64,000 nucleotides of DNA from Fuscovulum sp. (GTDB lineage: Bacteria; Pseudomonadota; Alphaproteobacteria; Rhodobacterales; Rhodobacteraceae). Positions within the stretch are counted from its first letter, which is position 1; each line of letters starts with the position of its first letter. Below, one piece after another: positions 23,755 to 40,426 of this stretch. The translations under genes were made by a program, and so were the position numbers. Below the pieces are notes generated by a model. The model was not told the origin of the DNA. It ran no database searches and saw only the letters and a program-made list of their open reading frames with translations. The stretch lies in contig CP136571.1 of the NCBI GenBank assembly GCA_035192965.1, forward strand, positions 144,501-208,500, given 5' to 3'.

Positions 23755-24993
23755 TCAAGCCATCTGGGCCAGATGAAGCGCGGCGTCGGGCAGCGCCGAA
23801 TAGCCACCGCGCCCGGCAACCCAGGTGCGGATGGGTGCCGGCATGCCCTGATCGGGCCAGTCGAGAAGCACCAGATCGGCGCGTTGGCCCGGCGCGATGC
23901 GACCACGATCCGCCAGACCCATGGCCGCCGCCGGATTGGCAGAAACGAGCCGCCACAGCGCGGGCAGGCTCGCCACGCCATCGGCCAGCAGGCGCACGAC
24001 GGCACCCAGCATGGCCGGATAGAAGTAATCAGACGCCAGAATATCGCACAGGCCGCGCGTGATCATCTCGGCCGCGCCGGGCGAGCCGAGGTGTGATCCG
24101 CCGCGCATTGCGTTGGGCGCGCCAAGGACGATCCAATCGCCCTTTTCCCGTGCCGAAAGGAACACGCGTTCATGCATCGGGAATTCCGCGATCTGCGCGC
24201 CATGGGCACGGTAAAAGTCGCGTGTCTCGGTCTGGCTGTCGTCATGCGACAGCATGGGTGCGCCGCGTTCGGCCGCCATGGCGGCCACCACCGCAATGTC
24301 ATCCCCGACGCGCGGGCGGCGGTTCCAGACCGTCATCATCAGCACGACATAGGCATCAAGATCCATATGCGATCGCTTGGCGCGGCCATCCATCTTGGCC
24401 CGGAAGGCGGGGGTGGAAAGGTCGGTCACCGGGTAATCTGGCACCAGGTCGAACGGACGGTCATGCAGCGCGATGGAGGGGTGCAGCAGGGCCGATGAAG
24501 TGTGGTCATTGAAGGCGACAGAAGGCGCGTCCTTGGCGGCCAATGCCTCGGCCATCAGGGGGATGCCTTCGGGGCAGAAGGTTTCCCAACGCAGTTGCAG
24601 ACGGTTTTCCACCGTCAGGCGCGGGCGCAGGCGGCCCAAGGCGTGCAGCATGTCCCATCCGGTTTGCACGGAACGCAGGCCGGGTTCCCAGCTGAGCGTG
24701 AGGGCGTGGTAGGCGGTGGCGATGCCGTTTGCGGCAAGCTGACGGTCAGTTTCCAGAAGCGCGGCGTCGATCGGGACGGTCACGCCGGGGCGGGGCATGA
24801 TCTGGCGTTCAAAGGCATCGCCGTGGATGTCGACAAAGGCGGGGGCGAGGATGCGACCGCGCGCGTCGATCACCGCCGCGCCGTCGCACGCCACATCCAG
24901 CCCGCTGATGCGTCCAGATTCGATCCGGACCGAGGCGCGTTCGATACGGTCGTCTAGGATGACGCGCGCGCCTTCGATGACAACGGCATCCAT
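23755..24993 (-). CDS. PhnM-family amidohydrolase, paralogue 3
   Basis: This 412-residue protein (starting at the ATG that shares one base with the methyltransferase stop) is PhnM-like: LAPAFVDIHGDAFERQIMPRPG, LSHDDSQTETRDFYRAHGAQIAEFP, LGAPNAMRGGSHLGS and LASDYFYPAML. Like paralogue 1 it has HGDxFERQ in place of HTDNLERH. It sits in the operon of the second phosphonate-type importer, between the methyltransferase and the acyltransferase genes. It may handle a different organophosphorus intermediate; pure redundancy is the alternative. Confidence 0.82.
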   Translation of the reverse strand: MDAVVIEGARVILDDRIERASVRIESGRISGLDVACDGAAVIDARGRILAPAFVDIHGDAFERQIMPRPGVTVPIDAALLETDRQLAANGIATAYHALTLSWEPGLRSVQTGWDMLHALGRLRPRLTVENRLQLRWETFCPEGIPLMAEALAAKDAPSVAFNDHTSSALLHPSIALHDRPFDLVPDYPVTDLSTPAFRAKMDGRAKRSHMDLDAYVVLMMTVWNRRPRVGDDIAVVAAMAAERGAPMLSHDDSQTETRDFYRAHGAQIAEFPMHERVFLSAREKGDWIVLGAPNAMRGGSHLGSPGAAEMITRGLCDILASDYFYPAMLGAVVRLLADGVASLPALWRLVSANPAAAMGLADRGRIAPGQRADLVLLDWPDQGMPAPIRTWVAGRGGYSALPDAALHLAQMA

Positions 24994-25649
24994 CACAGAC
25001 GCTCCGCCAAGATGTGCCAATGCCATGAGCCGGGCTTTTCATGTTCCCGGTCGATGAGCGAAAGCGGCTCGAACCCGGCGAAAAGCGCCAGTAGATCGCG
25101 CGCATTGCAGAAGTAATGCGGGTGGACCTTGTCGCCTTCGCCGTCGAAGACCCAGGTATTGCGCGAAATCTCACGTCCCGGTGCAAGGGCCTGTTCCACC
25201 GGAACACGGCGGGCGGACAGCATGGTGGCCATGAAGGTGCCTCCGGGGCGCAGGATGCGGGCGACTTCGGCCAATGTGGTGCGGACCACGGTTTCATCGC
25301 CGTGATAAATCACGTTCCAGGACAGGACGTGATCGAAGGTTCCGTCGGCATAGGGCAGATCGGTCATCGCGCCCTGCTTCACGCCGATTTCCAGCCCTTC
25401 GGCCTTTGCTGCGAGGTCGATCACGCGGACGGATTCAGCGGCGGCATCCAGCGCCTGAACCTTCAGGCCCATCCGGGCCAGTGCCAGAGCGTGCCGTCCG
25501 ATCCCGGCACCAAGGTCAAGGACGCGCGCGCCTTTGGGAAGATGGGCGCCATGGGCCAGAACCTCATCCTCGGCGCGTGCCCATTTGGACGTGCCGTCAG
25601 CGCGCTGCCATTCTTCGTTCCAGTAGCGATGGGCCGTGTCGGTTGTCAT
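24993..25649 (-). CDS. Class I SAM-dependent methyltransferase
   Basis: This 218-residue protein has motif I VLDLGAGIGRHALALA, the acidic end of strand 2 (ALDAA), an MTDLPYADGTFDHVLSWNVIYHG block and post-motif LRPGGTF. These mark a Rossmann-fold methyltransferase of the SmtA/UbiE type. It follows the importer permease by 12 bp and shares one base with the PhnM-like gene. The acceptor is not known. Its location suggests methylation of an imported phosphonate or its product. Confidence 0.85.
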   Translation of the reverse strand: MTTDTAHRYWNEEWQRADGTSKWARAEDEVLAHGAHLPKGARVLDLGAGIGRHALALARMGLKVQALDAAAESVRVIDLAAKAEGLEIGVKQGAMTDLPYADGTFDHVLSWNVIYHGDETVVRTTLAEVARILRPGGTFMATMLSARRVPVEQALAPGREISRNTWVFDGEGDKVHPHYFCNARDLLALFAGFEPLSLIDREHEKPGSWHWHILAERL

Positions 25650-25661
25650 GGCAGAGCCTTT

Positions 25662-26471
25662 TCAGATCAGTTTGGACCGGATCCAGCTGGACCCTTGTTC
25701 GACGATCATCACCAAAGCCAGCAGCATCAGGATGATGGTCAGCGCCTCGTCGTAGTTGAACAGGTCGAAGGCGACTTTCAGATCGACCCCGATGCCGCCC
25801 GCGCCCACAAGACCCAAAGCCGCCGACCCGCGCACGGCCTTTTCCAGCGCAAACAGCGAGGTTGCGGTGAACGAGGGAAGACAGGCGGGAAAGACGGCAG
25901 AGAAGATGATGCCCATGCGGCTGGCACCGATGGAGCGCAGGGCGTCTTGCGGGCCGGTGTCGGCCTCTTCCATCGCTTCGGCGAAGAAGCGGCCGGCAAA
26001 ACCGATCTTGTCGACCATGATGGCCAGCACGCCGGCAGCGGGGCCAAGGCCCACCATGATGATGAAGAAGATCGCCCAAACCAGATCGGGGATGGTGCGA
26101 AACAGCGCAATGATCGCGCGGGCTGCGACGCGGATCAGCGGGTGCGGCGACAGACGGTCGGTGGCGAGGATGGCGAAGGGCACCGCAAAGACAAGGCCAA
26201 GCGCCGCCCCGGCAACGGCCATTTGCAGGGTTTCCAGCAGCTTTAGCGCGATACGGTCGATCCGGCTGATATCCGGCGGGAACATCTGCGCCAGCAGGCC
26301 AGAGGGTGCAAAGAGGCGGGTGATCCCGCGACCCAGCGCATCGAATTGCGGGGCAGTGGCGGCGATGCTGGAGACGACCAGCGCCAGCACAACGATGATC
26401 CCGATGTATTCGCCTATGCTGCGATGTTCGAACCGTGGCAGGTTGACCGTTCCGTTTGCCATCCGTGTCAT
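25662..26471 (-). CDS. phnE: Phosphonate-type ABC transporter permease (second system)
   Basis: This 269-residue PhnE-family permease has an N-terminal helix (YIGIIVVLALVVSSIAAT), four to five more helices and the EAA-type loop (DALRSIGASRMGIIFSAVFPA). The end GSAALGLVGAGGIGVDLK matches PhnE. It is a single permease (presumably a homodimer), unlike the phnE/phnE2 pair of the first system. It overlaps the ATPase gene by 4 bp. Confidence 0.9.
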   Translation of the reverse strand: MTRMANGTVNLPRFEHRSIGEYIGIIVVLALVVSSIAATAPQFDALGRGITRLFAPSGLLAQMFPPDISRIDRIALKLLETLQMAVAGAALGLVFAVPFAILATDRLSPHPLIRVAARAIIALFRTIPDLVWAIFFIIMVGLGPAAGVLAIMVDKIGFAGRFFAEAMEEADTGPQDALRSIGASRMGIIFSAVFPACLPSFTATSLFALEKAVRGSAALGLVGAGGIGVDLKVAFDLFNYDEALTIILMLLALVMIVEQGSSWIRSKLI

Positions 26472-27265
26472 TCCTGATGTTCGAAGAAGCGCCGCAGATG
26501 CGCGGCGTCGGTACCTTGGGTGGGACGGTCCATCACGATCTTGCCTTGTTGCAGGCCAAGGATGTGGTCGGAGAATTCCAGCGTGTGTTCCATGCGGTGC
26601 GAAATCACGATCAGCGTCAGCCCGTCCTGACGGGCGAGATCGGACAGCAGGCGCATGATCTCTTCGCCGGATTGCGGATCGAGGCTGGCATCGGGTTCAT
26701 CGGCCAGGATGATGCGGGGACGTTGCATCAGCATCCGCGCGATGGCCACGCGCTGTGCCTGCCCGCCGGACAAACTGTCGACGCGTTGCAGGGCGCGGTC
26801 GGCTAGGCCAACGCGGGCGAGGCATTCCAGCGCTTCGGCGCGAACAGCGGCAGGGGCGATGGATTGGAACCAGGCGCGCGGGCCGGACATGCGGGCCTGC
26901 ACGCCATGCACCACGTTGGACAGCGCCGAAAGGCGGGGAACGAGGTTGTGCTTCTGCCAGACCACGCCGACCTGCGCCCGAAAGGCCCGCAGCCCACGCG
27001 GCGAGAGCGAGAGCACGTCCTGCCCCAGCATCTGCACCTGCCCGGCCGAGGGTTCAATCAGCCGGATCAGGCATTTCATCAGGGTGGATTTGCCCGAGCC
27101 GTTCGCCCCGATCAGCGCCGTCGCTACACCGGCGCGAACAGTGAAATCGATGCCCGCCAGAACCACGCGCCCGTCAAAGGATTTCTCCAGCTTCGAGACG
27201 GAAAGAACAGACCCCGCTTGCGCGGGATCTGTTGTCACAAGCGGGGCGCGTAGTGGCGCATTCAT
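26468..27265 (-). CDS. phnC: Phosphonate-type ABC transporter ATP-binding protein (second system)
   Basis: This 265-residue PhnC-like ATPase has Walker A GANGSGKST, signature LSGGQAQRVAIARM and Walker B IILADEPDASLDP, with QKHNLVPRLSALSNVVHG resembling PhnC. A 15-20-residue N-terminal extension is present. It lies between the binding protein gene (7-bp gap) and the permease gene (4-bp overlap) of the second system. Confidence 0.9.
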   Translation of the reverse strand: MNAPLRAPLVTTDPAQAGSVLSVSKLEKSFDGRVVLAGIDFTVRAGVATALIGANGSGKSTLMKCLIRLIEPSAGQVQMLGQDVLSLSPRGLRAFRAQVGVVWQKHNLVPRLSALSNVVHGVQARMSGPRAWFQSIAPAAVRAEALECLARVGLADRALQRVDSLSGGQAQRVAIARMLMQRPRIILADEPDASLDPQSGEEIMRLLSDLARQDGLTLIVISHRMEHTLEFSDHILGLQQGKIVMDRPTQGTDAAHLRRFFEHQE

Positions 27266-27272
27266 CGGGCGA

Positions 27273-28142
27273 TCACTCGCCCACGAATTCGGTGAATTCG
27301 GTCACGCCGACATTTTCAAACATCTTGCGGACGTTGTCGTAATCGGCATCGGTCACCGATGCGTTGAAGCTGCCGCCGATGTACTTTTCGTTTTCCTCGG
27401 TCGAGGTGACGGCGGCGATCAGTTCTTCGCCATGGTCGGCAAAGGTCTTGCGGACGATGTCCACCACTTCGGCGGGCACTTTGGACGAGGCGAGCAGGAT
27501 GTCATTGGGCAGTTCCGCGCCCTTGACCAGAACGCGCAGTTTCTGATCGGGGAAGGCTTCGGTCATCTGGTCGATATGGGTGCGGTTCAGGCCGATGGCG
27601 GCAATCTCGCCGCTGATCAGGGCTTCCATCGCAATGTTGCGCTTCAGGAAGACGGGTTCGTAATCCGTGCCATAGACAAGGCCCGCTTCGGCCAGCAGGG
27701 TGGCCGGCGACAGGTGCTGCGAGGTGGAACCGATCTCACCGAACGAGATTTTCTGGCCCTTCAGACCCGCCGTATCCTTGATTTCGGAACTGTCGAGGAC
27801 GACTACGTTGGAATAGTAGTCCGGGCGGTTCCAGGTCACCACCGGCACGGCATCCATGCGGGCGTTGAACACGACATATTCAGCCGGGCCTGTCAGCACG
27901 AAATCGACCTGCTCGGCGGCCATCGCCTCGACCGCCACGGTGCGGCCGGAAACGGGGAAGAATTCGACCTTGAGGCCGGAGATCTTTTCAAAGGCATCCT
28001 TGAACGGACCCATTTCGCGCTGCACGGCTTCGGCACCATCAATATCGGTGACGGCAAAGCGGATGGTTTCTTGCGCCGCGGCGATGCCTGCCCCTGCCAT
28101 CATGGCAAGGCCGAAGATGCCGGCTTTCAGAAGATTGGTCAT
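27273..28142 (-). CDS. phnD: Phosphonate/phosphite-type substrate-binding protein (second system)
   Basis: This 289-residue PhnD-like protein has a signal peptide (MTNLLKAGIFGLAMMAGAGIAAAQ). In the mature part, VDFVLTGPAEYVVFNA corresponds to the ligand-pocket block, and KISFGEIGSTSQHLSPATLL carries the serine-rich phosphonate oxyanion site. The ligand may be an alkyl phosphonate, phosphite or an ester; sequence alone does not decide. It is the first gene of a likely six-gene minus-strand operon. Confidence 0.88.
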   Translation of the reverse strand: MTNLLKAGIFGLAMMAGAGIAAAQETIRFAVTDIDGAEAVQREMGPFKDAFEKISGLKVEFFPVSGRTVAVEAMAAEQVDFVLTGPAEYVVFNARMDAVPVVTWNRPDYYSNVVVLDSSEIKDTAGLKGQKISFGEIGSTSQHLSPATLLAEAGLVYGTDYEPVFLKRNIAMEALISGEIAAIGLNRTHIDQMTEAFPDQKLRVLVKGAELPNDILLASSKVPAEVVDIVRKTFADHGEELIAAVTSTEENEKYIGGSFNASVTDADYDNVRKMFENVGVTEFTEFVGE

Positions 28143-29109: not shown

Positions 29110-30498
29110 TCAGCGCAGCAGGAGGCCGATCTGTTGCGCCAGCATGGCAGGATCGACAGGCTGCTCCGTATCAACCTCGATCAGGGGGAACCCACCCGAG
29201 GGGCGCGCACGTTCGGCCAGTGCGCGCAGTTCCGGCACATAGTCCAGACCGGGGTGGCCGGCGGGGCGGCTTCCTGCGCGGCGCGAGTAACGGTCGGCGA
29301 TAGTATCAGGCCGGGCGTGGCACCAGACTTCGACCACCTCGGTGATCCCGGCGCGCTGCAACCCCTCGTCCAGCACGGCGCGGGGCTGGAAGCCGAACCA
29401 AGCGTCTATGATGACTGTCGCGGCGGGCGGGTGCTGGGCGACCATGTCGAAGATGGCGGAGTATGTGGCCATGCCGAAGCGGCGATTCATCGGGCGGTCG
29501 ACAGGCGCGAATTCCAGCAGGAAGGGGTTCTTGACCGTATCAAGCGACAAGACAGGCCAGCCCCCGGCGCGTGAGAGGTGGTCGGCGATCCCGGATTTAC
29601 CCGACGCCGGAACCCCGTTGACCAGAATGGCGCGGCGGCCGCGCGGCAGGCTGGCCAATGCCGCGCCCGTCACGCCCGCATCATCCTGAAGGGCCGCAGC
29701 GACCACGGGCGCATCGAACCAGGACCGCGCGGATGGCACGCGGGCAAGGGCCGCCAGTGCAGCCGCGCCTGCCCCACCACCGATCAGCACCAGATCGGGC
29801 GAAACAGCCGTGATCATCGTGTCGATCGCGGAACGCAGCGGGGCAGCCCAGCGCATCAGCACGGTTTGCGCAGCGGGATCGTCGTCCATCGCCAACAGAT
29901 CCTGGGCTCGCAGATGCGATGGCAACCCAGCCTCGGCCAGATGGGTGGCGAAGGCAGTGCCGGAACTTTCCGTTTCGACGCAGCCGCGACGTCCGCAGAC
30001 GCACGGCCGCCCTTCGGGCATGACGACGAGATGGCCCAGTTGCCCTGCCGTTCCGCGGCCCCGCAGGATGCGCCCATGGTCGAGGATCGCCCCGCCAATG
30101 CCAGTGCCTATCGTGAACAGGACGGCATTTGCGCAGCCCCGGGCGGCGCCCACCCGCGCCTCGGCGATAAGGGCCATGCTGGCGTCATTGTCGATGGTGA
30201 CGGGCAGACCCGCCTCTTCGGCCAACCGCCGGGCAAAGGGAATGCTGGATAGATCGACGTAACCACCCGACAGCGCGACCTGACGGTCGAAATCCACCTG
30301 ACCGGGAACGCCGGCACCGATGGCCACGGTATCGGCATCGCGCAGGGCGGAGATCAGGGCAAGGCAGGTGCGCAGGCAGCCAGCCGGGTCGCGGTCTGTG
30401 GCCACGGCGCGACGGTCAAGGATGGTGCCGTCCGGTGCCACCCGCGCGGCGCGGATGTTGGTGCCGCCGATATCGATGCCGATGGCATTGCGCGGCAT
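29110..30498 (-). CDS. Fusion of ROK-family sugar kinase and P-loop kinase
   Basis: This 462-residue protein has two parts. Residues 1 to about 285 are a ROK-family kinase: IGIDIGGTNIRAARV, GTGIGGAIL, and the zinc motif C166-x-C168-G-x4-C173 with GHLVVMPEG. From about residue 288 follows ILVNGVPASGKS (Walker A, K301), then LDTVKNPF and a VIIDAWFGFQP segment, resembling small AAA/gluconate-kinase-like phosphotransferases. No stop or frameshift separates them. It lies 3 bp after the LacD-like aldolase gene. Which sugar each half phosphorylates is unknown. Confidence 0.86.
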   Translation of the reverse strand: MPRNAIGIDIGGTNIRAARVAPDGTILDRRAVATDRDPAGCLRTCLALISALRDADTVAIGAGVPGQVDFDRQVALSGGYVDLSSIPFARRLAEEAGLPVTIDNDASMALIAEARVGAARGCANAVLFTIGTGIGGAILDHGRILRGRGTAGQLGHLVVMPEGRPCVCGRRGCVETESSGTAFATHLAEAGLPSHLRAQDLLAMDDDPAAQTVLMRWAAPLRSAIDTMITAVSPDLVLIGGGAGAAALAALARVPSARSWFDAPVVAAALQDDAGVTGAALASLPRGRRAILVNGVPASGKSGIADHLSRAGGWPVLSLDTVKNPFLLEFAPVDRPMNRRFGMATYSAIFDMVAQHPPAATVIIDAWFGFQPRAVLDEGLQRAGITEVVEVWCHARPDTIADRYSRRAGSRPAGHPGLDYVPELRALAERARPSGGFPLIEVDTEQPVDPAMLAQQIGLLLR

Positions 30499-30501
30499 GG
30501 G

Positions 30502-31404
30502 TCAACCGCGCGGCATGTGCCGCCCGATGACGGCCTGAAGTTCCCGCAAGCGGGGTACGGCCATCGTGGTCAGCCGTTCGCGTGTAACGTCACGGTCGAG
30601 CGAGATGCAATCCTTCCACAGGGACCGCCCTGCAATCACACCGGATGCGCCATTCGCCATCGCCGTCTCCACCTGTCCAAGGAAGGTGGCATGATCGACG
30701 CCTGCCGACAACACCGCCCAGGGCACATCGCCCGCCATCCGGGTGATGTTGGCGCAGGCCTCGGCCGTGCCGGGGAACGGGATCTTGAGCACCTTGGACC
30801 CAAGGTCGAGGCAGATGCGCGACCCACCTTCGATCAGCGCGGGAATGGCTTTCGCATGGGTGGCCTTGTCCTCATCCGGCAGGGCGTATGTGAGAAACTC
30901 TACGACCAGCAGCAGGTCTTCGGCGGCGAAATCGTCGATCACCTGTTTCAGAAGGGCGATGTTCTGGGTGTTGGCAGCCGGAATGTCGGACCGCAGATAG
31001 ACCATGATCTTGCCACCCGTGCCGCCCAGTTCCCGCACACGGCGCGCGGTGATGCCGGGAACAAGCTTTGAGATGCGATAGCCTTCGGGCGTGGTGCCAA
31101 ATCCGGAATCATCCAGCCCGACCAGCAGCGCAGTCGATTTGTGCAGATGCCCTTCGTCAATCATACCCGGCAATGCGCAGACCGGATCGACCAGAATCGC
31201 CGTGGCGTGACGGGCAAGATGGGAGCCAATGTCGATCTTCGTGGCCCCAAGCACATCAATGCCGATCTTTGCCTGTTCCTCGGGCGTGGCGGCGAGAAGG
31301 GTCCGCATACCGCCGCGCTGATCGCAGGCCACAACCATCATGGCGCCCTCGTCGCCGCAGATCATCTGATAGCCGCGCCGTTCAGCGGTTGTCATCCCAG
31401 TCAT
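30502..31404 (-). CDS. LacD-type class I aldolase (tagatose-bisphosphate aldolase family)
   Basis: This 300-residue TIM-barrel protein matches the LacD family, which includes tagatose 1,6-bisphosphate and sulfofructose 1-phosphate aldolases. Useful blocks are VVACDQRGGMR at the N-terminus, ILVDPVCALPGM, the Schiff-base lysine region SKVLKIPFPG, and PWAVLSAGVDHATFLGQ. The frame is open upstream, but the start with MTGMTTAERRG is most likely. It is the first gene of the minus arm, divergent from the SorC regulator. It probably cleaves the phosphorylated product of the island's kinases. Confidence 0.85.
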   Translation of the reverse strand: MTGMTTAERRGYQMICGDEGAMMVVACDQRGGMRTLLAATPEEQAKIGIDVLGATKIDIGSHLARHATAILVDPVCALPGMIDEGHLHKSTALLVGLDDSGFGTTPEGYRISKLVPGITARRVRELGGTGGKIMVYLRSDIPAANTQNIALLKQVIDDFAAEDLLLVVEFLTYALPDEDKATHAKAIPALIEGGSRICLDLGSKVLKIPFPGTAEACANITRMAGDVPWAVLSAGVDHATFLGQVETAMANGASGVIAGRSLWKDCISLDRDVTRERLTTMAVPRLRELQAVIGRHMPRG

Positions 31405-31604: not shown

Positions 31605-32504
31605 ATGGTGGCCAAGCTGCACTATGAATCTGACCTGCCGCAGGTTCAGATCGCAAAGCAGCTTGGGGTTTCCACGGCAACGATCTCGCGCCTGTTGCAA
31701 CGGGCACGGGCCGAGGGGATCGTGCGGATCGAGGTGCGCGATCTGGTGGTGCCCGATGCCTTGGCCGCGCAACTGGAACGACACTTGGGATTGCGGCGCG
31801 TCGCGGTCAGCGAAGCTGCGCCAAGCGGTGTGGCGATGGCGCTGGCTGGTCCGCTTGGCACGATGCTGAAGACGGCGAACATGGCCCCCGGATCGGTGCT
31901 TGCGCTGGGCTGGGGGCGGACGATCCGCGCGGTGCTGGAGGCGGGGCTGCCGAAGATTCCGGGGGTTCTGGTTGTGCCGGCGACAGGTGGCATGTCGCAG
32001 CATCAGGCGCATTTCCAGATCAACGAATTCGCGCGAATCGCTGCAGAACAGCTGGATGGAACCGCGAACTTTCTGCATGCGCCGGTGCTGCCGAGCGCGG
32101 AATCGCGCAACATCTTTCTGTCTGATCCGGCGATTTTGCAGACGGTAGCGCTGTGGGACCGCATCGATGTGGCTGTGGTCGGGGTCGGTTTGCCCCATTC
32201 GTTGAACGCGCCAGAGGCAAGTGTTGCGACACCGGATGAGCAGCGCCTGCTGAACTGTGCCGGCGATGTGGTGCGGCATTACTTTGACGCGCATGGAAAC
32301 ATGATCGATTGGGACGGCGCGGAACGGTTGATCGCCGTGTCCGAGGCGCAATTGCAGAAGGCGCGGCTGTGCATCGGCGTGGCGGCGGGCGAAGCGAAGG
32401 CGCCGTCGATCATCGGGGCGGCACGGGCGAATCTGATCAACGCGCTGGTCACGGATTCGACCACCGCGCAGGCGGTGCTGGGGCTACTGCGCGCCCCGAT
32501 CTGA
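31605..32504 (+). CDS. SorC/DeoR-type transcriptional regulator of the sugar island
   Basis: This 299-residue protein begins with a helix-turn-helix (YESDLPQVQIAKQLGVSTATISRLLQRARAEGIV). A SorC-type sugar-binding domain follows: VLALGWGRTIRAVLEA, PATGGMSQHQAHFQINE, and LLNCAGDVVRHYFD near residue 225. The annotated ATG leaves a short N-terminus. In-frame coding continues upstream to about 31554, where an AAGGA ribosome site precedes a CTG, so the true start may be non-canonical. It is divergent from the aldolase gene and upstream of the importer, and is likely a sugar-phosphate-responsive regulator of both arms. Confidence 0.88.
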   Translation: MVAKLHYESDLPQVQIAKQLGVSTATISRLLQRARAEGIVRIEVRDLVVPDALAAQLERHLGLRRVAVSEAAPSGVAMALAGPLGTMLKTANMAPGSVLALGWGRTIRAVLEAGLPKIPGVLVVPATGGMSQHQAHFQINEFARIAAEQLDGTANFLHAPVLPSAESRNIFLSDPAILQTVALWDRIDVAVVGVGLPHSLNAPEASVATPDEQRLLNCAGDVVRHYFDAHGNMIDWDGAERLIAVSEAQLQKARLCIGVAAGEAKAPSIIGAARANLINALVTDSTTAQAVLGLLRAPI

Positions 32505-32648: not shown

Positions 32649-33635
32649 ATGAAACGTCGTTCGATTCTGAGCGCCGCAGCCGCTGCCTCTGTCGCCCTGA
32701 CCATGGGCATGGGTGCCGCGCAGGCGCAGGACAAGAAATTCACCATCGCACTTGTTCCGGGCCTGACCACGGATGCCTTCTACATCACCATGCAAAAGGG
32801 CGCGCAGGCCGCGGCTGATGCGTTGGGGGTAGAGCTGGTGTTCCAGGGCGCGCCCGATTTCAACCCGGTGACGCAGGTGCCGGTGCTGGACGCGGTGATC
32901 GCGCGGGCTCCGGACGCGATCCTGATCGCGCCCACCGACACGACCCAGCTGATCGAACCGCTGCGCAAGGCGCATGACGCGGGTATCCCGGTGATTACGG
33001 TGGATACGTTCATCGGGACCGGCCAGTACCAGACCGGTGCAGGCGATGCCGATTTCCCGCTGGCCTATATCGCATCGGACAACGTGCTGGGCGGCAAGAT
33101 CGCGGCACGCGCGCTGGCCTCGGCCATTGGTGGCGAAGGCAAGGTCTATGTGTCGAATGTGAAGCCGGGGATTTCCACCACCGACCAGCGCGAAGCAGGC
33201 TTCAAGCAGGCGATGGCCGAAGAATTCCCGAACATCACGGTTCTGGAAACCCAGTTCAACGACAACGACGCCAACAAGGCCGCCTCGCAGTTGCAGGGTG
33301 TTCTGGCGCGCGAGGCCGATCTGAAGGGCGTCTTCGGGGCGAACCTGTTCTCGGCGCTTGGTGCGGCGAATGGCGTCCAGCAGGCTGGTCAGTCGGGCAC
33401 GATCAAGGTTGTGGCCTTTGATGCGCCGACGTCGATCGTTGACAACCTGACCACTGGTCTGGTGGACGTGGCCATTGCACAGCACCCGGCCGAGATTGGC
33501 TATTACGGTGTTGTGTCGGCCTTTGCCCACCTGACGGGCAATTCCATCCCGGTCAGCATCGGGACGGGCTTCACCATCATCACCAAGGACAACGTGACCG
33601 ATCCGAACGTGGCGAAATACGTCTATTCCGACTGA
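32649..33635 (+). CDS. Sugar ABC transporter substrate-binding protein (RbsB/FrcB type)
   Basis: This 328-residue periplasmic-binding-protein-like I protein has a signal peptide (MKRRSILSAAAAASVALTMGMGAAQAQ). The fold marks are clear: IALVPGLTTDAFYITMQKGAQAAADALG, DAILIAPTD, AHDAGIPVITVDTFIG and GVFGANLFSALGA. It precedes a permease and an ATPase, and a strong hairpin follows its stop. The ligand is a monosaccharide or polyol; the sequence does not say which. Confidence 0.92.
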   Translation: MKRRSILSAAAAASVALTMGMGAAQAQDKKFTIALVPGLTTDAFYITMQKGAQAAADALGVELVFQGAPDFNPVTQVPVLDAVIARAPDAILIAPTDTTQLIEPLRKAHDAGIPVITVDTFIGTGQYQTGAGDADFPLAYIASDNVLGGKIAARALASAIGGEGKVYVSNVKPGISTTDQREAGFKQAMAEEFPNITVLETQFNDNDANKAASQLQGVLAREADLKGVFGANLFSALGAANGVQQAGQSGTIKVVAFDAPTSIVDNLTTGLVDVAIAQHPAEIGYYGVVSAFAHLTGNSIPVSIGTGFTIITKDNVTDPNVAKYVYSD

Positions 33636-33670: not shown

Positions 33671-33748
33671 ATTCCGATGCGTCACATCACAAGACTGCAA
33701 GCCGGGCCCGTGGGTCCGGCACGCTGTCCCAGACCACAGGACCACCCC

Positions 33749-34807
33749 ATGACGACCGAAGCGCCGGGACCGGCTGGCGGGCATGTCTCGCCCCCTGCTG
33801 ACCATGCCGAAAAGAGCCGCACCGTTGTGCAGCGCATTGCCGACCTGCGGGCCTGGCTGTTTCTTGCCGCCCTGATCCTGGGTTTCGAGATCTGGAGCCG
33901 AGTTTCCTTTGGCGGTTCCTTTGTCTTCAACCCCTATAACATCACCTCAATCGCGATCTTTGCGGTGGCACCCCTGCTGTTGGCGACGGGGCAGACCTTC
34001 GTGATCATCTCGGGCGGGATCGATCTGTCGATGGGCTTTATCATGGGGCTTGCCGCCGTGGTCGCAGCGCATGTGATCAACTGGGCCACCCCGACCATGG
34101 GTATGCCGATGGCGGTGCTGTTCGGGTCGCTGGTCGCGGTGGGGATCGCGATGATCCCCGGCTGTGTGAACGGTCTGCTGGTATCGCGCCTGAATGTGCC
34201 GCCCTTCATCGGGACATTGGGCATGTTCGGTGTGGCACGGGGCGTGGCCTTTCTGCTGGCGGGCGGAACGACCGTGCCGGTGCAAAATTCGTTCTTTGCC
34301 ACGCTGGGCAACGGCCGCATCTTCGGCATCCCGTGGATCGTGATCGTGACTGCGATCTTCGTGCTGATCATGCACTATCTGCTAAGCCAGACCCGGTTCG
34401 GGCAGCACAACTATGCCATTGGCGCCAATGCACAGGCGGCCCGGCGGGCGGGCATCAACATCAAATCGCATCTGCTGCGCCTTTATATCCTGTCGGGGAT
34501 CTGTGCGGGGCTGGCCGGTGTTCTTTATGCGGCGCGGTTCAGCGCGGGCGCGGCGCAGGCGGGGGAACCCTTGCTGCTTGATTCCGTGGCGGCTGTCGTC
34601 ATTGGCGGGGCAAGTCTGTTTGGCGGGTCGGGCACCATCCTTGGAACCGTTGCGGGGGCCTTCGTGATTGCCGTCATCCAGTACGGGCTGGTTTTCATAA
34701 ATGTCGAACCCTTCTGGCAGTTCATCTCTGTCGGGGTGGTCATCATCATATCGGTGCTGATCGATCAGGCGCAGCGCCGGATCAGCGGAGGGCGGCAAAG
34801 TGAGTGA
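33749..34807 (+). CDS. Sugar ABC transporter permease (RbsC/FrcC type)
   Basis: This 352-residue inner-membrane protein has about eight to ten helices. The SGGIDLSMGFIMGLAAVVAA block and NAQAARRAGINIKSHLLRLYILSGICAGLAGVLYAARF are RbsC/FrcC-family hallmarks. I start at the ATG with CAGGA upstream rather than an earlier in-frame one. It overlaps the ATPase gene by 8 bp. Confidence 0.9.
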   Translation: MTTEAPGPAGGHVSPPADHAEKSRTVVQRIADLRAWLFLAALILGFEIWSRVSFGGSFVFNPYNITSIAIFAVAPLLLATGQTFVIISGGIDLSMGFIMGLAAVVAAHVINWATPTMGMPMAVLFGSLVAVGIAMIPGCVNGLLVSRLNVPPFIGTLGMFGVARGVAFLLAGGTTVPVQNSFFATLGNGRIFGIPWIVIVTAIFVLIMHYLLSQTRFGQHNYAIGANAQAARRAGINIKSHLLRLYILSGICAGLAGVLYAARFSAGAAQAGEPLLLDSVAAVVIGGASLFGGSGTILGTVAGAFVIAVIQYGLVFINVEPFWQFISVGVVIIISVLIDQAQRRISGGRQSE

Positions 34808-35546
34808 GACATCCCCCCTGCTGGAGGTGCGCAACCTGTCCAAGAATTTTGGTCCGGTGCAAGCGCTGAACGATCTGACGATGCATGTGGGCGCAGGCGA
34901 GGTTGTTGCACTGGCCGGTGACAATGGCGCGGGCAAGACCACGTTGATCAAGGCGATCTCGGGCGTCTATCGGCCTTCGTCGGGCAGCGTGCTTCTGGAA
35001 GGCCAGGAGGTGAGCTTTGCATCACCGCAAGAGGCGCGGGAACGCGGGATCGAGACGATCTATCAGGATCTGGCGCTGGCGGATAACCTGTCCATCGGGG
35101 CCAACATCTTTCTGGGCCGCGAGCCGATGACCAAACGCTTTGGCTTTTTGCCTGTTCTTGACCGCAAGAAGATGGCGCAGGCGGCAAAGGAAACCATGGC
35201 ACTGCTGGATTTCCACGTCAGCCGGATGGAGGCACCTGTTTCCAACTTTTCCGGCGGGCAGCGGCAGGCGGTGGCCATCGGGCGCGCGGTCTATTGGAAT
35301 GCGCGTATCCTGATCATGGATGAACCTACCGCCGCGCTTGGCGTGCCGGAACAGCGCAAGGTGATCAGCCTGATCCACCAGCTGAAGGCGCAGGGGCGGG
35401 GCGTGATCTTCATCTCACACAATCTGCAAGACATCTTTGCGGTGTCGGACAGGATCGTCGTGCTGCGGCGGGGCGTGATGGCGGGCGAACGCCGCATCGC
35501 CGACACCACACATGACGAGGTGGTGAAATTGATGGTCGGGGGCTGA
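34800..35546 (+). CDS. Sugar ABC transporter ATP-binding protein, single domain (FrcA type)
   Basis: This 248-residue ATPase starts at a GTG overlapping the permease gene. It has Walker A GDNGAGKTT, signature FSGGQRQAVAIGRA, Walker B ILIMDEPTAALG and FISHNL. Most ribose-type importers have a duplicated ATPase of about 500 residues; a single-domain form is as in the FrcBCA fructose importer of rhizobia. It is cytoplasmic and lies 4 bp before the kinase gene. Confidence 0.9.
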   Translation: MSETSPLLEVRNLSKNFGPVQALNDLTMHVGAGEVVALAGDNGAGKTTLIKAISGVYRPSSGSVLLEGQEVSFASPQEARERGIETIYQDLALADNLSIGANIFLGREPMTKRFGFLPVLDRKKMAQAAKETMALLDFHVSRMEAPVSNFSGGQRQAVAIGRAVYWNARILIMDEPTAALGVPEQRKVISLIHQLKAQGRGVIFISHNLQDIFAVSDRIVVLRRGVMAGERRIADTTHDEVVKLMVGG

Positions 35547-35550
35547 TGCG

Positions 35551-36486
35551 ATGACGGCGCGTCCGGTCATCGGATCGCTTGGCGAGTTGCTGGTGGAATT
35601 CGTGTGTACCGAAACCGACGGGCGAAATCTGCGCCCGTCGGTCTATCGCGGCCCGTTCCCCAGTGGCGCACCGGGGATATTCATTGATCAGGTGGCGCTT
35701 GCGGGCGCGCAGGCGGTTTTTGCCGGGGCGGTGGGAACCGATGCCTTTGGGCAGGTGGTGCTGGGCAGGCTTGTGGCCGATGGCGTATCGGACAGCCTGA
35801 TCCGCCAGATCCCCGGCCTGCCCACAGGTACCGCGCATGTCAGCTATAACAGCGATGGCAGCCGCGATTTCGTGTTCAACATGGCCGCCTCTGCCGCCGC
35901 GCGCTTTCCCAAAGGGCGTGAGGCGATCGAGGGGTTTCTTGCCGCCGGAACAGAGGTGCTGCACATTTCAGGCTCTGCATTGGGTGATCCCGACATGCGC
36001 ACTGCAATCGCCGAAGTCGCTGTCGCCCTGCATAAGGCCGGGGTCGCCTTGTCGATTGATCCGAACATCCGCACCGAATTGATGTCGGATGCAGGCTATC
36101 TGGACACGGTTCGCCATCTGATAGGGCTGGCGACTTATGTGCTGCCATCGGATGCGGATGCCGCGCTGCTTTGGCCCGGTGCGGGGTTTGCCGATTGGGC
36201 CGAGGCGCTGCCCGCACGGGTGGTGGCACTGAAGCGGGGCGACAAGGGCGCGATGGCGCTGGCCGATGGCGTGCTGACCGATCTGCCTGTGCATCCTGTG
36301 ACCGTGGTTGATCCAACCGGAGCGGGCGACTGTTTCTGCGGGACATTCGTTACACTGCTGGCCACCGGCATGGCCATGCCGGACGCGCTGGCGCGGGCGG
36401 TGGTCGCGGGCGCGCTGGCCGTGACGGCGCTGGGCCCGATGGAGGGCAACAGCCCAAGGGCGCGGATCGAGGCGGAACTGGCATGA
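35551..36486 (+). CDS. PfkB-family carbohydrate kinase
   Basis: This 311-residue ribokinase-fold protein has the substrate region GAPGIFIDQVALAG, a middle SIDPNIRTEL segment and the ATP-binding/catalytic signature DPTGAGDCFCGTF near residue 255, with the base Asp in place. It probably phosphorylates the imported ketose. It overlaps the GatZ-like gene by 4 bp. Tagatose or fructose kinase are candidates, by context only. Confidence 0.88.
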   Translation: MTARPVIGSLGELLVEFVCTETDGRNLRPSVYRGPFPSGAPGIFIDQVALAGAQAVFAGAVGTDAFGQVVLGRLVADGVSDSLIRQIPGLPTGTAHVSYNSDGSRDFVFNMAASAAARFPKGREAIEGFLAAGTEVLHISGSALGDPDMRTAIAEVAVALHKAGVALSIDPNIRTELMSDAGYLDTVRHLIGLATYVLPSDADAALLWPGAGFADWAEALPARVVALKRGDKGAMALADGVLTDLPVHPVTVVDPTGAGDCFCGTFVTLLATGMAMPDALARAVVAGALAVTALGPMEGNSPRARIEAELA

Positions 36487-37733
36487 CGGCGCTGGCCGAG
36501 ATTCTGGCACAGAACCTTGCGGGCAAGGGGCGCGGGTTGCCCGCATGGTGCACGGCGCATCCGGAAACGCTGGCCGCGATCCTTGCCACCTATCGCGATG
36601 ACGATGCGCCGGTCCTGATCGAGGCGACCTGCAATCAGGTGAACCAGCTGGGCGGCTATACCGGAATGACCCCTGATGCATTTCGCGGGTTCGTCGAAGG
36701 GTTGGCCGTTGCGCAGGGTGTCGATCCTGCGCGCCTTGTTCTGGGGGGCGATCATCTGGGCCCGAACCCGTGGCGGCACCTGCCGGCGGATCAGGCGATG
36801 GATCATGCGAGGGCCATGGTTGCGGCCTATGTGCAGGCCGGTTTCACCAAGATTCACCTCGATGCCTCGATGCCCTGCGGGGGTGAAGTGCTTTCGCAGC
36901 CGGAAATGGCCCGCCGCGCCGCAGACCTTGCCGCTGTGGCCGAGGCAGAGGCCGGAGGGCGGGCGCTGGCCTATGTGATCGGGACCGAGGTTCCGATCCC
37001 CGGCGGTGAGACGGCCCCGGTGGACCGCCTGTCGATCACCACAGCCGAGGCAGCGCGGCAGACCATCGAGGAGCACCGCGATGCCTTTGCGGCGCGTGGC
37101 CTGAGTTCGGTCATGGCGCGTGTCGCAGCGCTGGTGGTGCAGCCCGGCGTGGATTTCGGCAATGCACAGATCATCGGCTTTGATCCACCTGCCGCTGCGG
37201 CCTTGTCCGCCGCTGTTGCCGGTTTCGGTGGCCCGGTGTTCGAGGCACATTCGACAGATTACCAGTCTGGCCCCGCGCTGCGAGCGCTGGTGCAAGGGCA
37301 TTTCGCGATCCTGAAGGTTGGGCCGGAACTGACCTTTGCCTACCGGCAGGCCGTGCTGGCGCTGGAGCGTCTGGCGCAACTGATGGGCCTGCCTTCGGGG
37401 GTGGAGGCTGCGCTGCGCACGGCGATGGCCGATGATCCGCGCGATTGGCAGGCCTATGTCGACCCCGGGCCGGACGCACCGCAGATGATGATATGGGGTC
37501 TGTCGGACCGCGTGCGCTATTACTGGCCCAAGCCGCAGGTGCAGGCGGCACAGCTTGCCTTGTTCACTGCCTTGCGTGCCGCACACCCGCCGCCCGGCCT
37601 TGTGGCACAGGTGACGGGCGGGCTTGCCGTGCCTGTCGATCCCGCGACGCTGCCGGAAACCGTTATCCAAGCCAATGTGGGCGCCGTTGTTGCCCGATAC
37701 CGCACCGCGACAGGAGATTTCGATGCCCCCTAA
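36483..37733 (+). CDS. GatZ/KbaZ-like protein (tagatose-bisphosphate aldolase non-catalytic-subunit family)
   Basis: This 416-residue TIM-barrel protein matches GatZ/KbaZ: PVLIEATCNQVNQLGGYTGMTP, LGGDHLGPNPW, KIHLDASMPCGG, IGTEVPIPGGE, and VFEAHSTDYQS near residue 255. The catalytic class II partner GatY/KbaY is not encoded nearby; a class I LacD-type aldolase is present instead. From family knowledge, GatZ-like proteins can act as ketose-6-phosphate 4-epimerases, so this could epimerise rather than stabilise an aldolase. Confidence 0.88.
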   Translation: MTALAEILAQNLAGKGRGLPAWCTAHPETLAAILATYRDDDAPVLIEATCNQVNQLGGYTGMTPDAFRGFVEGLAVAQGVDPARLVLGGDHLGPNPWRHLPADQAMDHARAMVAAYVQAGFTKIHLDASMPCGGEVLSQPEMARRAADLAAVAEAEAGGRALAYVIGTEVPIPGGETAPVDRLSITTAEAARQTIEEHRDAFAARGLSSVMARVAALVVQPGVDFGNAQIIGFDPPAAAALSAAVAGFGGPVFEAHSTDYQSGPALRALVQGHFAILKVGPELTFAYRQAVLALERLAQLMGLPSGVEAALRTAMADDPRDWQAYVDPGPDAPQMMIWGLSDRVRYYWPKPQVQAAQLALFTALRAAHPPPGLVAQVTGGLAVPVDPATLPETVIQANVGAVVARYRTATGDFDAP

Positions 37734-38799
37734 ACAGGACCGCCTGCTGCGTGTCGGCGTGCTGGGCTGTGGCCCGATTGCGCAGGCAGCCCATTTTGAG
37801 AGCTGCACCAAGGCGCGCAATGCCACGCTGTATGCGATCTGCGACGTGGCCGATGACCTGCGCGAACGCATGGCCGCAACCCATGCCCCGGAGCGGCAGT
37901 TCAACGACTATGACGCAATGTTGGCCGATCCCGACTTAGAGGCAGTGATCATCGCAACATCCGACGCTTTTCACGTTCCGGCCGCCCGGCGGGCGCTGGA
38001 GGCGGGCAAGCACGTGCTGTGCGAAAAGCCGTTGGCAACATCGGTGGAAGAGGCAGAAAGCCTGCGCGACATCGCGGCAAGCAGCGGCAAGGTGCTGCAA
38101 GTGGGGCATATGAAGCGGTTTGATGCCGGGTTGCAGGCGGCGAAGGCTTTCATCGATACTGGCATGGGCCAGATGGTCGCGCTGAAGGCATGGTATTGTG
38201 ACAGCACCCACCGCTATCCGATGACCGATGCCGTGCAGCCGTTGATGGTTACCAGCAAGGCCGCCCGCAAGCCCATCGAAAACCCCAAGGCCGATCTGGA
38301 CCGCTACTACATGCTGGCCCATGGCAGCCACCTTGTGGATACCGCGCGGCTGTTCGCAGGGCCGATCCGTGCGGTGGATGCGCGGCTGTCAAACCGGGCA
38401 GGGATCCGCTGCTGGTTTGTCGATGTGGAGTTTGAGAATGGCGTTTTGGGCCATCTGGACCTGACCGTCGCGGTGCGGATGGATTGGCATGAGGGGTTCC
38501 AGATCTATGGTGAGAACGGGTCAATTCTGGGCAAAACCTACAACCCGTGGTATTACAAATCGTCTGAAGTCGATATCTTTGATGAACGCGACGGCGCGAC
38601 GCGCCGGGTTCTGGGGGCCGACGGGCATTTCTATCGCCGCCAGCTTGAAGGCTTTGCCGATGTGATCCTGAGCGGCACCCGGATGGAAGGGGCCGATCTG
38701 GAAGATGGCATTGCATCCGTCAGGGCCATGGTTGCCATCGCGCAATCTGCCCGCAGCGGGCAGCCCGTGCGGCTTGATCAGGCGCAGGGGCCGGTCTGA
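37723..38799 (+). CDS. Gfo/Idh/MocA-family oxidoreductase
   Basis: This 358-residue dehydrogenase has an N-terminal NAD(P)-binding fold (VGVLGCGPIAQAAH) and the family EKP motif in GKHVLCEKPLATSVEEAE, with the catalytic HGSHLVD region near residue 205. The ATG has a CAGGAG ribosome site and overlaps the GatZ-like stop by 11 bp. It probably oxidises a sugar or polyol (for example an inositol- or glucoside-like 3-OH). Its place in the operon ties it to the same pathway. Confidence 0.9.
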   Translation: MPPKQDRLLRVGVLGCGPIAQAAHFESCTKARNATLYAICDVADDLRERMAATHAPERQFNDYDAMLADPDLEAVIIATSDAFHVPAARRALEAGKHVLCEKPLATSVEEAESLRDIAASSGKVLQVGHMKRFDAGLQAAKAFIDTGMGQMVALKAWYCDSTHRYPMTDAVQPLMVTSKAARKPIENPKADLDRYYMLAHGSHLVDTARLFAGPIRAVDARLSNRAGIRCWFVDVEFENGVLGHLDLTVAVRMDWHEGFQIYGENGSILGKTYNPWYYKSSEVDIFDERDGATRRVLGADGHFYRRQLEGFADVILSGTRMEGADLEDGIASVRAMVAIAQSARSGQPVRLDQAQGPV

Positions 38800-39620
38800 T
38801 GCGGCTGGGCATCTTTGCCAAGACCTTTCCGGGCAGCGATCCGTTTACGGTTCTGACGGCCGCGCAGCAGGCGGGATATGATGCGGTGCAGTACAACATG
38901 GCCTGCTCCGGCCTGCCCTCCATGCCGGACAGCCTGCAGGAAAACACCGTTCCAGCGTTGGTGGCCGCGGCGCGCGGGGCCGGTGTCGCGCTGGCGGCGG
39001 TTTCGGGCACCTATAACATGATCCATCCCGACCCGGCCCAGCGCGCCATCGGATTGCGGCGCCTGTCGGTGCTGATCGACCATGCCGCCGCCATGGGAAC
39101 CGGCATGGTCACGCTGTGCACCGGCAGCCGGGATGCGGCGGACCAATGGCGCCACCACCCCGACAACCAGACGACCGAGGCTTGGCGCGATTTGCTGGTT
39201 GAGATGGAGAAGGCCTGCGCTCTGGCCGAGGCGAAGGGCGTGAAGCTGGGGGTGGAGCCGGAATTGGCCAATGTGGTCAATAGCGCGGCAGCCGCGCGCC
39301 TGTTGATCGACACGATGCAAAGCCAAGCGCTGGCCATTGTGCTGGATCCGGCAAACCTGTTTGAGATTGCCTCCGACGCGGACCGCACCCGTATCATTGA
39401 AGGTGCCATCGACCTGCTGGCCGACCGCATCGCCATGGCGCATGCAAAGGACCGCAACCCGGATGGCAGCTTTGCCACTGCGGGAAGAGGCGTGGTCGAT
39501 TTCACCCATTTCATAGCCCGTCTTCGCAGAGCGGGATTTGACGGCGATCTGGTCACCCATGGCCTGACGGCGGATGAGGCTGCGGGGGTTGCCGCCCATC
39601 TGAGGGACTGTGGCGCATGA
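38799..39620 (+). CDS. Sugar phosphate isomerase/epimerase family TIM barrel
   Basis: This 273-residue AP-endonuclease-2-fold protein begins MRLGIFAKTFPG and has conserved metal-site blocks VKLGVEPE, IVLDPANLF, AMAHAKDRNPDG and DGDLVTHGL. The family isomerises or epimerises ketoses or acts as a dehydratase. It overlaps the hydrolase gene by 4 bp and shares one base with the dehydrogenase gene. Confidence 0.85.
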   Translation: MRLGIFAKTFPGSDPFTVLTAAQQAGYDAVQYNMACSGLPSMPDSLQENTVPALVAAARGAGVALAAVSGTYNMIHPDPAQRAIGLRRLSVLIDHAAAMGTGMVTLCTGSRDAADQWRHHPDNQTTEAWRDLLVEMEKACALAEAKGVKLGVEPELANVVNSAAAARLLIDTMQSQALAIVLDPANLFEIASDADRTRIIEGAIDLLADRIAMAHAKDRNPDGSFATAGRGVVDFTHFIARLRRAGFDGDLVTHGLTADEAAGVAAHLRDCGA

Positions 39621-40423
39621 CGAACCCGGCGAGGTGGATCACCGCGGACGGGCTTTCGCTGGCCCTGCATGATGCAGGGGGCGATGGTTTGCCGGTGATC
39701 TTTCAGCACGGGCTTTGCGGCGATGCGCGCCAGACGGTAGAGGCCTTTCCCCCCGATCCGCGCTTTCGCCGGATCACGCTGGAATGCCGGGGGCATGGCA
39801 GTTCGGACTTCGATCCCGATCCGTCGCTTTCCCAATTCACCGATGATCTGGCAGGGTTGGTTGCATCCTTGGGCCGTGCGGTGCCGGTAGGTGGCATATC
39901 GATGGGGGCGGCGCTGGCCTTGCGTCTGGCGGTGGCGCGGCCGGAGTTGGTATCGCATCTGATCCTGGTGCGGCCTGCTTGGGGCGCCGGGGCGGAGGCG
40001 CCTGCGAACCTGGCCCCGAATGGTGCGGTGGGGCAGTTGCTGTATCGGTTTCCGGCAGCCGAGGCGCGGGCCGCGTTTCTGGAGAGCGACATGGCGGCAG
40101 AGTTGCGTGCGACGTCGCCGGACAATCTGGCCTCGCTCATCGGGTTCTTTGGGCGGGAGCCGGTGTCGCGGACGGCGATCCTGCTGTCTGCCCTGTCCGC
40201 CGAGCCTTTGGGCGTGACGCGCGCCGATCTGGCGGCGCTGCGTTTGCCGGTTCTGATCTGTGCCACGGCAGAGGATGCGATCCATCCGGCGGCGCTTGCG
40301 CAGGATCTTGCGGCGCAGATACCGGGGGCCGTGCTGTGCGACCTTCCCGCCAAGGGGCGCGACAAGGCGGCCCATATCGCGGCCCTTCACCATGAAATAA
40401 TTGACTTCCTTACAAGGACTTGA
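39617..40423 (+). CDS. Alpha/beta-fold hydrolase
   Basis: This 268-residue protein has the nucleophile elbow GISMG (S95), an oxyanion stretch FQHGLCGDARQT and a late catalytic His region KAAHIAALHHE. Placed after a dehydrogenase gene it might be a lactonase acting on a sugar lactone, but esterase or other hydrolase activity is equally possible from sequence. It lies 3 bp before the epimerase-like gene. Confidence 0.82.
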   Translation: MTNPARWITADGLSLALHDAGGDGLPVIFQHGLCGDARQTVEAFPPDPRFRRITLECRGHGSSDFDPDPSLSQFTDDLAGLVASLGRAVPVGGISMGAALALRLAVARPELVSHLILVRPAWGAGAEAPANLAPNGAVGQLLYRFPAAEARAAFLESDMAAELRATSPDNLASLIGFFGREPVSRTAILLSALSAEPLGVTRADLAALRLPVLICATAEDAIHPAALAQDLAAQIPGAVLCDLPAKGRDKAAHIAALHHEIIDFLTRT

Positions 40424-40426
40424 CCC

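Follow-up and report, generated by a model that had tools for sequence, protein, structure and literature searches.

The open frame at 29110..30498 on the minus strand of the window, the 64,000-nucleotide stretch of Fuscovulum sp. contig CP136571.1 analysed here, encodes a 462-residue protein in which a ROK sugar kinase and a P-loop kinase are fused in a single chain. The best explanation for this protein, with a probability of roughly 0.7, is a bifunctional ketose kinase that feeds a sugar bisphosphate to the aldolase encoded beside it. The gene is best explained as one member of a six-gene core, consisting of a divergent SorC-type regulator, a three-gene ABC transporter, a LacD-type aldolase and the double kinase.

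Two kinase domains in one chain

Translation of the window places the frame at exactly these limits, and a plus-strand reading of 29110-30498 was ruled out by the stops that it contains. The N-terminal half, residues 1-284 (29647..30498, minus strand), is covered by the Pfam ROK model PF00480 over residues 6-281 (E 2.8e-47, 162.1 bits against a cut-off of 22.9), and its nearest solved structures by sequence are the ROK glucokinases 3vov and 2qm1. For ROK membership, both the DxGxT motif with the catalytic Asp and the CxCGxxGCx(E/D) zinc motif are present. In an alignment of 21 ROK domains, 18 from fused proteins (the window included) and 3 from split forms, D9, G11-T13, N104, D105, Q153, H156, C166, C168, C173 and E175 are kept without exception; N104-D105 (30184..30189, minus strand) is the catalytic Asp position of ROK kinases, and H156, C166, C168 and C173 (29980..30033, minus strand) make up the zinc site. 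The initial annotation had called an intact ROK kinase with a zinc motif at C166, C168 and C173, and the residues are as it described. The ExGH sugar motif, as defined for ROK kinases in an excerpt of PMC5458393, is absent from this half, and QxGH, with Q153, takes its place in all 21 domains. Since E. coli NanK has His153 at the position of the ExGH glutamate (same excerpt), position 153 varies among ROK proteins named NanK.

The C-terminal half, residues 285-462 (29113..29646, minus strand), has a gluconate/adenylate kinase-like fold and is matched by AAA_33 (PF13671) over residues 291-411 (E 8.2e-07, 29.9 bits against a cut-off of 27). "AAA" is a Pfam label only, as this half folds like small P-loop kinases; one of three standalone P-loop relatives scanned lies above the AAA_33 cut-off and two lie below it. 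The Walker A motif GVPASGKS spans residues 295-302 (29593..29616, minus strand), which bears out the earlier placing of a Walker A K301 in this domain. An alignment of 34 P-loop domains shows 33 positions without any variation, with K301, D320, K323, R335, R339, D365, R403, R407 and R411 among them. The APS_kinase model of Pfam matches the split form L019 at 7.7e-07 and is not among the matches of the fused window protein at a limit of E 0.01. In an AlphaFold model of the whole fusion that is weak (pLDDT 63.8; 58-92 per ten-residue block from residue 291), the best structural match of the C-terminal half is the putative kinase 2rhm (Z 17.6, rmsd 3.1, 164 aligned), with further matches to gluconate kinase 1ko1 (Z 16.2, rmsd 2.6, 158 aligned) and adenylate kinases (Z about 16). 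A profile of 19 P-loop domains also matches 2rhm (E 4.3e-16). With their catalytic motifs intact, both kinase halves look active as judged from sequence.

Gene neighbourhood in the window

A gene for a DeoC/LacD-family class I aldolase (30502..31404, minus strand; PF01791, E 1.1e-14) lies upstream in the same orientation and ends 3 bp before the ATG of the fusion, in agreement with the adjoining aldolase gene claimed earlier. The columns of the catalytic Lys/Glu and of the Schiff-base Lys are kept in 23 of 23 aligned aldolase relatives, and the same columns are common to two of three outgroups, a protein that we label YihT and a LacD annotated in Enterococcus. The Devosia protein used as the third outgroup failed to align at the Schiff-base column. 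In LacD the catalytic residues are Lys126 and Glu164, according to a portion of PMC9007349. The window aldolase fails the lacD equivalog model TIGR01232 (60.9 bits against 432.2) and therefore represents a sister subfamily rather than LacD proper. It is about equally near YihT and LacD, and no gene of a sulfosugar (YihT-type) pathway is annotated in the annotated regions looked at.

A SorC/DeoR-type sugar-binding regulator (31605..32504, plus strand; PF04198, E 1.9e-44) is divergently placed, and beyond it lie genes for an ABC sugar-binding protein (32649..33635, plus strand) very close to PDB 5dkv (Avis_5339; E 1.6e-157), an ABC sugar permease (33677..34807, plus strand; PF02653) and an ABC ATPase of 248 residues (34800..35546, plus strand). 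RbsA-type sugar ATPases are usually double-domain, unlike this one, in which PF00005 matches a single stretch and hence one ATPase domain. Two accessory genes come after, for a PfkB kinase (35551..36486, plus strand), which falls below the cut-off of its best NCBIfam model, tagatose kinase (246.2 against 420 bits), and a GatZ/KbaZ-like protein (36483..37733, plus strand; PF08013, E 8.9e-136). Both were ruled out as core genes, being seen in just 7 and 8, respectively, of 33 other loci, counts that are lower bounds because the ends of the fetched DNA vary.

Along 35551-41125 on the plus strand, the PfkB, GatZ-like, Gfo/Idh, AP_endonuc_2 (epimerase-like), abhydrolase and Rpe-like genes trail the transporter in one direction, and they perhaps form a second sugar route fed by the same transporter. 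The Gfo/Idh, AP_endonuc_2, abhydrolase and Rpe-like genes recur near the module on Agrobacterium and Rhizobium plasmids (L024, L026). Downstream of the fusion, at 23755-28142 on the minus strand, are PhnD, PhnC and PhnE-like transporter genes, together with genes to which we gave the labels methyltransferase-like and PhnM-like independently of any family search. A phosphonate link was rejected: among 18 loci compared, in one of which (L015) the DNA ends soon past the fusion, only L013 and L016 share PhnDCE-like genes, which are therefore taken as neighbours and not partners. At L023:5783-6532 and L026:6173-6919, genes annotated as pyridoxine 5'-phosphate synthase and as HAD-family adjoin the SorC regulator of the module; the synthase, deemed an odd partner, is seen in the Agrobacterium rubi and Rhizobium sp. 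SL42 loci.

Distribution of the fused and split forms

With the fusion as query, 6 of 292 Rhodobacterales genomes were matched at E 1e-30, three with a fused form (its own genome included) and three with a split form, and a class-wide sample of 385 genomes at E 1e-45 returned its own genome only. Among 72,556 plasmid records, 24 match at least 80% of the query and come from Rhizobium, Agrobacterium and Aureimonas; 9 of them were examined as loci. The genome collection supplied four further loci, and the P-loop profile led to two more in genomes of the same class (L040, L041); the fused loci outside the family of the window are from plasmid records and these two genomes. The fusion is intact in 17 of 20 PTS-free loci, all alphaproteobacterial, and the remaining three (L019-L021) have separate overlapping genes; among the 17, L013 shares 99% identity with the window. 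The fusion, whose occurrence in close relatives the initial annotation had put at stake, is thus present in relatives, and its recurrence in 17 other loci rules out a sequencing frameshift joining two genes. At E 1e-40, the aldolase as query retrieved the same 6 of 292 Rhodobacterales genomes as the kinases, as well as 5 of 349 genomes of the phylum, all 5 among the 9 with a P-loop domain.

Loci in which a PTS takes the place of the ROK kinase

The P-loop profile found standalone genes in 5 of the 9 P-loop-positive genomes of the phylum and in 11 of 295 genomes of one order, those 5 included; these 11 are taken as relatives of Klebsiella and Sodalis, both of which occur among the 28 records matched by the P-loop half of the window. 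The standalone genes are flanked by PTS IIB, IIC and IIA genes and have no ROK gene. Altogether 33 loci were tabulated, the window excluded and a neighbouring ROK gene counted within 9 kb, and in these ROK and PTS are mutually exclusive: ROK is found in 20 of 20 PTS-free loci (17 fused, 3 split) but in 0 of 13 PTS loci. The PTS-free loci further contain LacD (20), SorC (20) and an ABC binding protein (19), and the PTS loci, in a reference-match table that leaves out transporter and dehydrogenase rows, contain LacD (4), a class II aldolase (9), a PfkA-like kinase (11) and SorC (2). An aldolase is therefore near every P-loop kinase of the table, LacD-type in 24 loci and class II in 9. Scans of two of the nine class II enzymes put both above the cut-off of TIGR00167, a model for ketose-bisphosphate aldolases (269.6 and 262 bits, cut-off 215.6). 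The matching of class II aldolases covered the 13 PTS loci; among the 20 ROK loci, L023 carries an annotated class II fba at a distance of about 7 kb. In the Sodalis PTS, the sole locus scanned, IIC is EIIC-GAT and nearest to ascorbate-type models, and this locus may therefore act on another substrate.

Two PTS loci, L069 and L070, retain the alphaproteobacterial layout, with a regulator set against LacD and the P-loop kinase; the genes for IIA, IIB and IIC come next, and then one of about 100 residues. Neither has a gene matching the ROK, PfkB or PfkA-like references, the flanking genes being checked by eye. In the 16 loci with a separate P-loop gene, this gene overlaps by 4 bp the stop of ROK in 3 (L019-L021) and the stop of PTS IIA in 10; its start is unsure in L074. 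In L069 and L070, its overlap is one of 8 bp with the aldolase gene rather than with IIA, so that not every locus couples it to the component that adds the first phosphate.

Other features of these loci were recorded. The PfkA-like gene of L047 (5646-6697) is split between two frames; this Klebsiella pneumoniae record is deposited as a plasmid of 5.4 Mb and is probably the chromosome. GGDGS and TIDND are kept in 6 aligned PfkA-like kinases of PTS operons (L048:5586-6566 and five relatives), and an Arg and a His of the E. coli PfkA active site, at what we take to be their positions, appear replaced. A small protein of about 90-100 residues is encoded in 11 of 13 PTS loci (L048:8285-8557 and counterparts), and no Pfam or NCBIfam model matched its Sodalis copy at the limits used; the protein of about 100 residues after IIC in L069 and L070 looks different from it. 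The PTS IIA and P-loop genes of L042 gave no blastn match in the E. coli collection. Distant P-loop relatives with 29-30% identity, from Cryobacterium (L049) and Sphingobium (L050), have no annotated aldolase, ROK or PTS neighbour, and were left out of the 33 loci as lying outside the subfamily. In the P-loop tree, the PTS-type genes fall among fused Rhizobium rows with support of 82/92, and they may or may not descend from the fused form.

Proposed pathway and its alternatives

In the proposed pathway, for which we infer the activity, the step order, the phosphate positions and the substrate, the ABC transporter would import a rare ketose unphosphorylated. The ROK family of sugar kinases uses the far primary hydroxyl, and the ROK half may phosphorylate C7 of a heptulose or C6 of a hexulose, after which the P-loop half would phosphorylate C1; the carbon given to each half follows from such family habits. 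Cleavage of the bisphosphate by the LacD-type aldolase would then yield dihydroxyacetone phosphate together with an aldose phosphate, erythrose 4-phosphate in the case of a heptulose bisphosphate. A PTS delivers its sugar already phosphorylated and therefore does the job of the ABC transporter and the ROK kinase together. Because the PTS loci drop ROK and keep the P-loop kinase and an aldolase, the two-step reading fits best, and the simplest account of the gene content would be that ROK or PTS adds the first phosphate, the P-loop kinase adds the second and the aldolase cuts. The chance is about even that a gluconate-kinase-like P-loop family has turned into a ketose-phosphate 1-kinase and, fused to a ROK 7-kinase, takes free heptulose to the 1,7-bisphosphate on one chain; on this reading, the second kinase works alongside a PTS in Klebsiella, Sodalis and their relatives, and the first phosphorylation would be an exchangeable module.

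The initial annotation had suggested two sequential phosphorylations giving a bisphosphate for the aldolase, and the comparison of loci speaks for this scheme. ROK is missing from every PTS locus while the P-loop kinase and an aldolase are kept, a class II aldolase replaces LacD in most of these loci, the LacD subfamily occurs in the same genomes of the order as the kinases, and the same two-kinase and aldolase pathway has been proposed independently with mannoheptulose as substrate (part of PMC5507952). The PfkA-like kinase of the PTS loci could itself make a bisphosphate, which complicates the role of the P-loop kinase there, and the PfkB and GatZ-like genes in the transporter operon of the window, as a possible second route, count against the scheme.

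Alternatively, the P-loop half may phosphorylate the aldehyde freed by the aldolase, as a triokinase-like or tetrose kinase, with ROK or PTS making a ketose 1-phosphate. L069 and L070, with one phosphorylating step, an aldolase and a P-loop kinase, have a gene content that allows such a role, and it is the aldolase gene, not a PTS gene, that the P-loop gene overlaps there. An aldehyde kinase is nevertheless unlikely, as the habit of ROK kinases to use the far hydroxyl does not suit a ketose 1-phosphate, the class II aldolases scanned pass a model for ketose-bisphosphate aldolases, and the P-loop domain is tied to the first phosphorylating component by fusion in 17 loci and, among the 16 others, by a 4-bp overlap with the stop of ROK or IIA in 13; the invariant K323, R335 and R339 would moreover suit an anionic substrate. 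Fusions need not channel, and the two kinases could also serve different substrates and be fused merely for co-expression, with a PfkA-like kinase supplying the second phosphate in 11 of 13 PTS loci. Such a supplier was not matched in L069 and L070 (flanks by eye only), and an aldolase lies near the subfamily P-loop kinase in 33 of 33 loci, which makes separate substrates quite improbable. Still further from expectation is a regulatory or inactive P-loop half: some P-loop domains are sensors, and biochemistry on this half was not found in the parts of the literature looked at, but 33 invariant positions, with the Walker A Lys and three Arg of the lid region among them, speak against it.

Substrate of the pathway

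The binding protein of the window is about 79% identical (240/302 residues) to PDB 5dkv, an entry for Agrobacterium vitis Avis_5339 according to its title, with a ligand that we take to be alpha-D-tagatopyranose; the match was found by sequence, the structure model of the window protein being very poor (pLDDT 37.5). Avis_5339 is taken here as the Avi_5339 of PMC5507952. In the pathway section of that 2017 paper, a Rhodobacteriaceae bin08 locus is described that encodes an aldolase of COG3684, a ROK kinase (COG1940) and a kinase of COG0529 (APS-kinase-like) along with an ABC transporter. The binding protein of this transporter shows 83% similarity to Avi_5339, a protein "previously found to bind mannoheptulose" (an unpublished observation). 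The route proposed there, and called hypothetical, runs from mannoheptulose through the 7-phosphate and the 1,7-bisphosphate to glycerone phosphate and erythrose 4-phosphate. The window locus brings together an Avi_5339-like binding protein, a LacD-family aldolase and a ROK kinase, as the predicted pathway requires.

D-mannoheptulose is the most likely substrate, at somewhat better than even odds. The same mechanism acting on D-tagatose, through the 6-phosphate and the 1,6-bisphosphate to two triose phosphates, is a tentative second choice. Tagatose would agree with the tagatose-bisphosphate-like family of the aldolase, with the ligand presumed for 5dkv, and with the presence in the transporter operon of a GatZ-like gene and a PfkB whose nearest model is tagatose kinase. 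Against it stand the mannoheptulose binding reported for Avi_5339 (the same section of PMC5507952) and the rarity of the PfkB and GatZ-like genes among the other loci; furthermore, if fructose 6-phosphate were already made from tagatose by PfkB and GatZ, the window would have little need of the double kinase. Mannoheptulose has the ring configuration of tagatose plus one carbon, which would reconcile both ligands.

Significance

By these comparisons, the 2017 prediction becomes tightly constrained and cheaply testable, and a P-loop family is pointed to as a source of ketose-phosphate 1-kinases. A role is suggested for entries named "ROK family protein", "AAA family ATPase" or "ATPase AAA" in Rhizobium, Agrobacterium, Aureimonas, Klebsiella and Sodalis. 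The loci also offer a clean natural example in which an ABC transporter with a kinase is interchangeable with a PTS in one pathway, and a double kinase giving sugar bisphosphates from a free ketose could serve rare-sugar synthesis.

Comparison with known systems

The ROK half has in common with ROK glucokinases and ManNAc kinases the fold, DxGxT, the catalytic Asp and the zinc site, and differs from them by QxGH in place of ExGH and by the P-loop kinase at its C-terminus. The P-loop half shares its fold with gluconate kinase (GntK) and small P-loop kinases, as seen in the match to 1ko1, but is only 17-20% identical to the gluconate kinases listed, and its expected substrate is a ketose phosphate. 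In the LacC/LacD pathway, the second phosphate is placed at C1. The tagatose 6-phosphate pathway of LacC and LacD resembles the present scheme in a second phosphorylation followed by LacD-type cleavage (excerpt of PMC5816610), the window aldolase being about 28% identical to the annotated Enterococcus LacD. The second kinase there is ribokinase-like, whereas here it is a P-loop kinase: tagatose-6-phosphate kinase and 1-phosphofructokinase are both ribokinase-like enzymes in PMC1079889, and neither stands in the part shown of its P-loop list. The IolC-DUF2090 fusion, as described in part of PMC9007349, likewise places a fused sugar kinase in a pathway with a LacD-related aldolase, but joins a kinase to an aldolase, whereas two kinases are joined here.

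The closest system is the bin08 pathway of PMC5507952, which has an ABC transporter with an Avi_5339-like protein, a LacD-family aldolase, a ROK and a P-loop kinase, and the same reactions; two kinases (COG1940 and COG0529) are described there, and a single chain is found here. As the pathway was already proposed in that paper, the idea of it is not new. Its pathway section mentions neither a fusion nor a PTS variant nor a class II aldolase, and a ROK/P-loop fusion was not found in the portions of the literature searched. In conclusion, relative to these sources, what is new here is the single-chain fusion, its spread, and the exchange of its partners for a PTS and a class II aldolase.
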